Shown here in pieces: positions 30,422-39,504 of a stretch of 64,000 nt of DNA. Position numbers and translations under genes: made by a program. The first letter of the stretch is position 1. The number at the start of each line of letters is the position of its first letter. The notes below the pieces were generated by a model. It did no database searches, was not told the DNA's origin, and saw only the letters and a list, made by a program, of their open reading frames with translations. The stretch is from Victivallales bacterium (GTDB lineage Bacteria; Verrucomicrobiota; Lentisphaeria; Oligosphaerales; Oligosphaeraceae): the NCBI GenBank assembly GCA_017617415.1, contig JAFZWH010000091.1, positions 62,001-126,000 on the forward strand, written 5' to 3'.

Positions 30422-30901
30422 CTACTCTTTCACATCGGCGGCGACCTGCATCTTCACAATCCGATCCGGATTGATGACCTTCCCGTTGGGATCACCGGCG
30501 CTCTTCTTGATCTTGTCCACGAACTCCATGCCACTGGCGACCCTGCCCCAGACGGTGTACTGGCCATCCAGAAAACGCGCGTCCGCGAAACAGATGAAGA
30601 ACTGACTGTCCGCCGAGTTCGGATCCATCGCCCGCGCCATGGAGACCGTTCCGCGCACATGCGGGAAGGCGTTGAACTCGGCGGGGAGTTTCGTGCCACT
30701 GCCACCCATGCCGGTGCCGGTCGGGTCGCCCGTCTGCGCCATGAAGCCGTCAATCACGCGGTGGAAGACGATGCCGTCATAGAAGCCCTGGCGCACCAGC
30801 TCCTTAATGCGGGCGACATGCTTCGGCGCGGCCTGTGGCAACAACTCGATGACAACGCGGCCATCCTTGAGGTCCAGATACAGAGTGTTTTCTTTGTCCA
30901 T
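30422..30901 (-). CDS. Cyclophilin-type peptidyl-prolyl isomerase
   Basis: A 159-residue compact cyclophilin with F-H-R-V-I-D-G-F-M-A-Q-T-G-D (the catalytic Arg and Gln strand), M-A-R-A, S-Q-F-F-I-C-F and W-G-R-V. It speeds cis-trans rotation at proline bonds and helps folding. No signal peptide is seen, so it acts in the cytoplasm. It is the last gene of the long minus-strand run, followed by a strong terminator. A repeat with four exact heptamers lies directly upstream of its start codon, with a MITE-like insertion further on. Confidence 0.95.
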   Translation of the reverse strand: MDKENTLYLDLKDGRVVIELLPQAAPKHVARIKELVRQGFYDGIVFHRVIDGFMAQTGDPTGTGMGGSGTKLPAEFNAFPHVRGTVSMARAMDPNSADSQFFICFADARFLDGQYTVWGRVASGMEFVDKIKKSAGDPNGKVINPDRIVKMQVAADVKE

Positions 30902-30910
30902 GGTGTTTTC

Positions 30911-31126
30911 GAATGAGGAATGAGGAATGAGGAATGAGAAACCGCAGGGGTGCGGGGGCGTGCAGCCCCCGTAGAATTGTACCTAAATCCGTGAATTGCG
31001 GCAAGATGTACTGTCGGCGCCCCGCCGACAGTACACGCATTATGCAGACGCCACGCCTGCACTGTTCACCATTCACGGATTCAGATTGTAGGGTGCAAAC
31101 GACGGAATGGAGCCGCAGGGGTGTCC
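30911..31126. repeat. Dispersed intergenic repeat, copy A (interrupted)
   Basis: The copy opens with four exact GAATGAG heptamers (30911-30938), then a GC-rich part with hairpin GGGGGC/GCCCCC, then CCGTAGAATTGTA. The right part resumes at 31085 (ATTGTAGGGTGCAAAC) and ends with CCGCAGGGGTG (31113-31123), an exact direct repeat of 30942-30952. A shorter, uninterrupted relative lies at 39417-39504. Both sit between the 3' end of one minus-strand gene and the start of the next. Confidence 0.75.
30976..31090. mobile_element. 103-bp MITE-like insertion with 6-bp target duplication
   Basis: The six bases ATTGTA at 30976-30981 and 31085-31090 flank 103 bases missing from the sister repeat at 39.4 kb, which has a single ATGGTA there. 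Inside are near-terminal inverted repeats AATCCGTGAAT (30986-30996) and ATTCACGGATT (31071-31081), and a central perfect 12-bp hairpin TGTACTGTCGGC/GCCGACAGTACA (31007-31035). There is no coding capacity. This matches a miniature inverted-repeat element that needs a transposase in trans; no such gene is in the window. Confidence 0.6.
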
Positions 31127-32701
31127 CTATTTCACGAACAATTCAGCGGCCTGCTTGAGCGCCTTGCGGACACCCAATGCGGTCAGGGTATCCCCTGCCT
31201 GGAGCACCGTCTCGCCACGGGGCACGATGTACCGCTGACCGCGCTGGACCATGATGATGAAGACCCCCTGGGGCAGTCCGCACTCGCGGATGGCCTTGCC
31301 GACCATCGAGGACTCCGGCGTCACGGCGAACTCCTGCATCCGATTGTCTGCATAGTCGTCCTGATCCGCCGCCTTGCCTTTTTGACGTGGCAGGTTCACG
31401 CGGTCAAAGGAAATCGGCGCCGTAGGCGCGACCTTCAGTGGTGCGTCCAGTTTGAGCCATTTCGCCCATGGCATGATGGTGTAGCTTTGGCAGACCACCG
31501 AGAAGAGCACCACCCAGAAAACAAGATGGAAGAGCACCAGCGCCACGGAGCAACCTTCGTCGGGGACAATGTCGAATTTCCCCTGATAGAGCATCGGGAA
31601 GGTCGCCAGCATGATGGGAGCGCCACCGCGCAGTCCTACCCAGCTCACCAACGCTTTGGACTGAAACGAGAAGCGCTTCCCCCAAAGCAGTGCAAAAACC
31701 ATCGCCGGTCGCACCACGAACATCAGCAGGCATCCCAACAGCAGCCCCTGCCACCAGGTCCGGCCGAGCAGTTCCGGGCTTGTCATGAAGCCCAGCATTG
31801 TGAAGAGCACCACCTGCATCAGCCACGAGATCGCATTGGCAAAGCGGATGAAACTATTGTGAAAGACAAACCAGCGGTTGCCCATGAAAACGCCAGCCGC
31901 ATAGACCGCCATGAAACCATTGGCCTTCAGCAGGTCGGCAAGCGAGTAGGTAATCAGCACCACGGAGATGCCCATCACGTAGTAGAGGCCGTCATGGTCA
32001 AGATTGCCGTGATTGAAAAGCGCAATGGCTGCTTGGGACAGCACCCAGCCGATGAAAAGCCCCGCCAGCATCTTCCAGGCAAAGACTGGCAGGAAAAACA
32101 GCAGGCTCCTGCCCACGGGAAGCTCCGGCGTGATGACCAACCCAAGGAAGAAAAGCGTCAGGAAGGTCGCCATCGGGTCGTTGGAGCCAGACTCATATTC
32201 CAGCAACGACCGCAACTCCCCTTGCAAACCGACCTTCTTGGAACGCAAGATGGTGAAGACCGCCGCCGCATCCGTGGAAGAGATGATCGCGCCAAAGAGC
32301 AGACAAGTCGCCAGCGTCGCACCCGCCAGACACCCAAAAAACGACCGCAACAGGAAGCAAATTCCCCCCAGCAGCACTGCAGTCAGTAGTACACCGACGG
32401 TTGAAAGCACCGTCCCCGGCACCAGTACCCGTTTGATCTCTTTCAGGGACGACTCGCAGCCGCCGGAGAACAGGATATAGCACAAGGCGATGATCCCCAA
32501 GCGGTTCGCCAATCCCCAGCTAAGTCGGCTGTTGACATCGTATAATACGGTATCATGCAACGACAACAGCCGAACCAGCACGCCGATAACCAGGAAAATC
32601 AAGAGTCCTGGCATGCTCCAACGGCTGCTGAGTTTGCTGGAAAGCACGCAGCCCAGTATCAGCAATCCGCCAAACAGAATAAGCGCGGAAAAAAGATCCA
32701 C
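31127..32701 (-). CDS. Potassium/proton antiporter, CvrA/NhaP2-like
   Basis: A 524-residue CPA1-type antiporter. About twelve membrane helices fill residues 1-400, followed by a cytosolic tail. The tail from about 430 contains a TrkA-C (RCK-C) domain, with G-K-A-I-R-E-C-G-L-P and I-V-P-R-G-E-T-V-L-Q-A-G-D. This combination fits NhaP2/CvrA, which exchange K+ (or Na+) for H+. GTG at 32701 is the first plausible start. It lies 45 bases downstream of the V-ATPase K gene on the same strand, so it may be co-expressed with the ion pump to balance cation gradients. Confidence 0.9.
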   Translation of the reverse strand: MDLFSALILFGGLLILGCVLSSKLSSRWSMPGLLIFLVIGVLVRLLSLHDTVLYDVNSRLSWGLANRLGIIALCYILFSGGCESSLKEIKRVLVPGTVLSTVGVLLTAVLLGGICFLLRSFFGCLAGATLATCLLFGAIISSTDAAAVFTILRSKKVGLQGELRSLLEYESGSNDPMATFLTLFFLGLVITPELPVGRSLLFFLPVFAWKMLAGLFIGWVLSQAAIALFNHGNLDHDGLYYVMGISVVLITYSLADLLKANGFMAVYAAGVFMGNRWFVFHNSFIRFANAISWLMQVVLFTMLGFMTSPELLGRTWWQGLLLGCLLMFVVRPAMVFALLWGKRFSFQSKALVSWVGLRGGAPIMLATFPMLYQGKFDIVPDEGCSVALVLFHLVFWVVLFSVVCQSYTIMPWAKWLKLDAPLKVAPTAPISFDRVNLPRQKGKAADQDDYADNRMQEFAVTPESSMVGKAIRECGLPQGVFIIMVQRGQRYIVPRGETVLQAGDTLTALGVRKALKQAAELFVK

Positions 32702-39416: not shown

Positions 39417-39504
39417 AGGAATGAGGAATGAGGGGGCGCAGTGGTGCGGGGGCGCAGCCTCCGTAGAATGGTAGGGCACAAACAGCGGAATGAACGCGCG
39501 GGGT
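39417..39504. repeat. Dispersed intergenic repeat, copy B (uninterrupted)
   Basis: Two GAATGAG heptamers (39419-39432), GGTGCGGGGGCGCAGCCTCC, CCGTAGAATGGTAGGGCAC, then AACAGCGGAATGAACGCG. It matches both ends of the 30.9-kb copy but lacks its 103-bp insertion, so it represents the empty site. It fills the gap between the V-ATPase E and DUF2764 genes. Confidence 0.7.

Follow-up and report, generated by a model that had tools for sequence, protein, structure and literature searches.

A multicopy 104-bp element with IS1380-type ends, probably a MITE, interrupts an intergenic repeat in a Victivallales bacterium

A 104-bp intergenic segment in the window (the whole 64,000-nucleotide stretch of Victivallales bacterium DNA that was analysed) is, with a probability of about 0.93, a non-autonomous MITE with ends of the IS1380 family. 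We read it as a MITE because it has 15-bp terminal repeats, is flanked by 5-bp duplications at many sites independent of one another, is absent from sister copies of the repeat that it interrupts, reaches tens of copies per genome in one genus, leaves no space for a transposase gene and carries IS1380-like ends. A miniature transposon had been proposed from the letters of the window alone (the sequence-only reading), and that proposal was supported, since both copies with the same boundaries and duplications and IS1380 ends were found.

The segment lies between genes for a cyclophilin-type peptidyl-prolyl isomerase (30422-30901, minus strand) and an Na+/H+ exchanger with a TrkA-C domain (31127-32701, minus strand). 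ATTGTA is present on both sides of it (30976-30981 and 31085-31090) and had been taken as a 6-bp duplication around 103 bases. The flanks are real, but sister copies terminate in ...GGATTCAGA or ...CAGG, so that the last A is part of the element; this makes the element 104 bp long and shortens the duplication to 5 bp, TTGTA (Table 1). The 15-bp terminal inverted repeats have the family consensus CCTGAATCCGTGAAT, and the family ends read CCTGAATCCGTGAAT...ATTCACGGATTCAGG, with the last G changed to A in the own genome's close copies. Within them, the near-terminal 11-bp inverted repeats already noticed (AATCCGTGAAT/ATTCACGGATT) were located at 30986-30996 and 31071-31081. The inner stem was perfect, as first described, but measured 13 bp instead of 12, with 31007-31019 pairing with 31023-31035. 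Folded as DNA, the segment gave a z of −7.2, and none of 200 shuffles folded equally well. Full-length copies were 102 to 106 bp long and without a transposase gene, and the short gene-less body, terminal inverted repeats, target duplication and multiple copies that characterize MITEs were all observed. A promoter-like match on the minus strand (31004-30976), a consensus match only, runs across the element's left end and the target; the TACAAT in it comes from the host repeat, and it points toward the cyclophilin gene.

Table 1. Coordinates of the element, its parts and the repeats around it (window positions unless a contig is given)
Feature	Position	Strand	Remark
Left target duplication	30977..30981	.	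TTGTA; boundary set from sister copies
Complete element, probable IS1380-type MITE	30982..31085	+	104 bp; subfamily A; model R1 match at exactly these ends (G000:C173:92982-93085)
Left terminal inverted repeat	30982..30996	+	CCTAAATCCGTGAAT
Hairpin 1 (internal)	31007..31035	+	13-bp perfect stem, TGTACTGTCGGCG/CGCCGACAGTACA
Hairpin 2 (internal)	31043..31061	+	TGCAGACG/CGCCTGCA, one mismatch
Right terminal inverted repeat	31071..31085	+	ATTCACGGATTCAGA
Right target duplication	31086..31090	.	TTGTA
Host repeat, left part	30911..30981	+	GAATGAG units, then GGGGGCGTGCAGCCCCCGTAGAATTGTA; interrupted by element
Host repeat, continuation	31086..31113	+	TTGTAGGGTGCAAACGACGGAATGGAGC
Sister copy of host repeat	39417..39504	+	uninterrupted; empty-site control
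Enclosing ~150-nt repeat, L276-L280	G000:C96:5641, C97:5825, C97:17016, C92:3996, C26:2909

The interrupted sequence is itself a repeat, matched 46 times in the own genome, in which GAATGAG units are combined with a GC-rich palindrome terminating in ...CCCCCGTAGAATTGTAGGGT. Its usual uninterrupted reading is GTAGAATTGTAGGG, and in the displayed host-repeat copies GTAGAATTGTA or a close variant was uninterrupted by the element, the window copy excepted; there the order is GTAGAATTGTA, 104 bases, TTGTAGGGT. The claim that an intergenic repeat with an uninterrupted sister had been split was borne out, as the sister carries a single ATGGTA (39468-39473). Only the sequence of the empty site needed revision: compared with the other host-repeat copies, which usually read GTAGAATTGTAGGG without interruption, ATGGTA is a variant and TTGTA the ancestral target. 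Since this usual target sequence is exactly the duplicated one, the internal empty-site control is stronger than the sequence-only reading had stated.

As had been anticipated, further copies with identical boundaries and flanking duplications were found in the own genome and in same-genus genomes, the duplications being typically of 5 bp instead of the 6 bp first proposed. Five close copies in the own genome (90 to 100% identical in the search) were accompanied by diverged ones, and model R1 gave 18 matches there, some of which are relics or the composite repeats L276-L280. Two same-genus genomes, G001 and G003, had at least 20 R1 matches each (at least 41 copies by DNA search in G001), and the third, G002, had none. 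Beyond the genus, a same-family genome from a different genus had one good copy (two overlapping R1 matches on opposite strands), and three further genomes each had one weak, near-threshold match; the R1 search of the class (198 genomes) gave no match in the remaining genomes searched. In the sampled genomes, the MITE family is thus confined almost to one genus, where it shows both multiple copies and presence or absence at individual sites. By eye, three subfamilies were visible in the alignment: A in the own genome (the window copy and four others, 89 to 96% identical to it), and B and C, found mainly in G001 and G003, respectively. Neither a plasmid search with the element nor a scan of viral contigs with the exact subfamily B pattern gave a match. 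The exact paired-end pattern also found nothing in 388 genomes of the phylum, a list without G001 and G003, and it missed the own genome too, because copies there carry substitutions in their ends; as evidence of restriction this null is weak, and the class-wide model search is better. One element and its printed flanks were identical in two genera (L078, G013:C129, and L080, G003:C74), which suggests a recent transfer or a misbinned contig.

Flanking duplications were assessed in two sets. Among 29 full-length copies extracted from four genomes and oriented, an exact duplication was found of 5 bp in 13, of 6 bp in 3 and of 8 bp in 1, compared with 0.04 5-bp matches expected when flanks of different copies were re-paired. 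An enlarged set of 51 rows (the earlier copies plus 20 more places, with a few rows that are alternative framings, so that distinct copies are slightly fewer) gave a duplication in 22, namely, 17 of 5 bp, 4 of 6 bp and 1 of 8 bp, against expectations of 0.14 (5 bp), 0.06 (6 bp) and about 0.2 overall. The exact 5-bp duplications were 75% A+T; they varied between sites and matched the flank, not a consensus. The lack of an exact duplication in more than half of the copies would be expected of old or recombined insertions.

In G001, the cyclophilin and exchanger genes are also neighbors, and the gap between them holds a relic of the family. That relic, however, is a truncated member of a different subfamily and sits at a different position, and is thus no proof of a fixed segment: the gap is without the host-repeat palindrome, and the truncated element is joined straight to the GAATGAG tract (L244, ~1415-1490). 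Its similarity reached 86.5% with subfamily C, the closest, but only ~70% with the window copy. The window copy has a perfect duplication, and another own-genome copy resembles it at 96%; we therefore read it as a younger insertion, separate from the relic. For another copy, L003, no equivalent was present behind the orthologue of its neighboring gene in either G001 or G003, where the noncoding sequence is too diverged for an exact-site alignment.

The ends of the element linked it to a known transposase family. IS1380-family elements of many phyla carry CCTGAATCCGTGA, near-identical to the MITE ends, at both of their ends. One IS1380 fragment from a same-family genome, scanned against the named genome collection, gave 80 loci with the transposase, most of which had CCTGAATCCGTGA-type ends (0 to 2 mismatches) on one or both sides. 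Where both ends lay ~1.5 to 1.9 kb apart (49 loci), a 5-bp duplication was present in 27 and a 6-bp duplication in 1; many of these loci are copies in one genome, Lentisphaera marina, so they do not each represent an independent lineage. At such loci, five full-length transposases scored far above the NCBIfam IS1380 cutoff, and in the same-family genomes G007 and G020 the same ends stand beside degraded (broken or incomplete) IS1380 copies. A transposase with matching ends, as looked for by the sequence-only reading, was therefore traced, ends sharing AATCCGTGAA being found on IS1380-family elements. IS1380 transposition is reported to give repeats of 4 to 5 bp (PMC12116815), and IS1247 is listed with repeats of 5 bp (PMC3281130). 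Both end type and duplication length are thereby shown to link the element to the IS1380 family, with which it shares the terminal repeats and the 4- to 5-bp duplication; at 104 bp and without a gene, it is not an autonomous member. No intact IS1380 partner was found in the own genome or genus: among the incomplete draft assemblies G000 to G003, no PF13701 transposase exceeded the cutoff, and the Oligosphaeraceae IS1380 fragment gave no match. By eye, the interior of the element was unlike what lies just inside the ends of the IS1380 copies seen, and the MITE may therefore not be a simple deletion derivative. In relatives in the Oligosphaeraceae, IS1380 copies (L113, L117, L125, L127, L134 and L135) have at one end a ~48-bp near-palindrome, in which the terminal repeat is joined by a second repeat in inverted orientation.

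Under the preferred reading, an IS1380-family DDE transposase supplied in trans would bind both ends and move the element, the target would be cut with a 5-base stagger, and repair would yield TTGTA twice. Such a transposase may have come from an IS1380 element that was lost from the genus or is missing from the draft assemblies. It is very improbable that the element is instead mobilized by a similar-ended DDE transposase from a different family, such as the IS4-like one of the own genome, its likeness to IS1380 being convergence. The own-genome transposase L045 does look IS4-like and matches PF13701 only below the cutoff, and no IS1380 transposase was found in this incomplete draft. However, the L045 locus, within reach of its contig, is without the 15-bp repeat at up to 4 mismatches, and its homologue L117 (in G005) appears by eye to be flanked by CTGTCCGGTAAAAAA-type ends and inserted beside an IS1380 end. 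A match of 13 to 14 bases to IS1380 ends together with an equal duplication length would also be hard to reach by convergence.

Over 27 copies, the terminal repeats were paired in 93% of cells, and two hairpins stood at fixed places, with 92.7% of the structure's cells being standard pairs. Two-sided (compensatory) changes were found in 23 cells compared with 6.3 in shuffles and 0 to 2 with the structure slid, and pairing was kept through such changes between subfamilies; since most are subfamily-wide differences at few pairs, they may reflect few events. These strong hairpins, the free-standing hairpins resembling hairpin 1 (GTCGGCG...CGCCGAC) outside the MITE in the own genome (L018, L020 and L025) and the presence of four Y1-type transposases would suit a nonmobile structured repeat, REP/BIME-like or an RNA element, that spread by recombination and included the direct repeats as part of itself. 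We consider this highly implausible. It is contradicted by the duplications, which are site specific and match the flank, by the sharp boundaries and by the empty site; an Rfam search of the element likewise gave no family match. Membership among REP/BIME elements with a RAYT gained no support, target duplications being present and no such hairpins being seen beside the four Y1 genes.

For the interior of what we take to be an IS1380-type MITE, two accounts fit: selection on structure, and correction of near-palindromes by template switching. Quasi-palindrome correction is known to act on near-perfect inverted repeats, and the changes are largely common to whole subfamilies, which points to few events; the chances are about even that the compensatory changes arose by such template switching in replication in a functionless interior and not by structural selection. 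Against this stands the finding that both hairpins are retained without a change of position across the three subfamilies, although the linkers drift. It is improbable that both hairpins are a maintained functional part of the MITE, e.g., a single-stranded DNA structure recognized by the transposase or a structure that dampens host transcription. If they were, the MITE could keep its high copy number even once its autonomous partner had been lost.

Compared with known systems, the element resembles the IS1380 family (ISEcp1/ISEc9, IS1247 and ISBha1; NF033539, PF13701) in its CCTGAATCCGTGA ends and 5-bp duplications, as judged from the IS1380 loci collected here, and differs from these insertion sequences in being 104 bp without a transposase gene and in a two-hairpin interior not recognized in them. 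The ISEcp1 end as printed in PMC12116815, CCTAGATTCTACGT inverted, is only partly like the MITE end. MITEPye1 (IS1182 type; PMC11578231) and TIMEs (Tn3 type; PMC4133298) are thought to be mobilized in trans by a full-size element. They are likewise short, with terminal repeats as in the full-size element, flanking duplications and a folded transcript, but they belong with other transposase families and occur in low numbers, whereas the present MITE has tens of copies per genome and its partner was undetected in the genus. The type II MITEs of Anabaena sp. 90 are similarly multicopy with no same-ended partner IS found in the genome (PMC3542288); here, in contrast, a partner family is identifiable from the ends, which also occur in relatives and in other phyla. 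The portion of the open literature covered gave no description of an IS1380-family MITE, and nothing was found there on transposases of Oligosphaeraceae; for these reasons the MITE family looks undescribed in the open literature, yet ordinary in kind. In this uncultured genus it can mark recent changes of the genome, and since many IS1380 elements have their terminal 13 bases in common across distant phyla, trans-mobilization is directly testable.

One end of the MITE and part of its body were also found enclosed, at five places, in a second repeat with outer inverted arms near AACGCTCTGTTTCCCAAGAGTGTTG (Table 1). This looks like a MITE that was captured by another small element and copied along with it.
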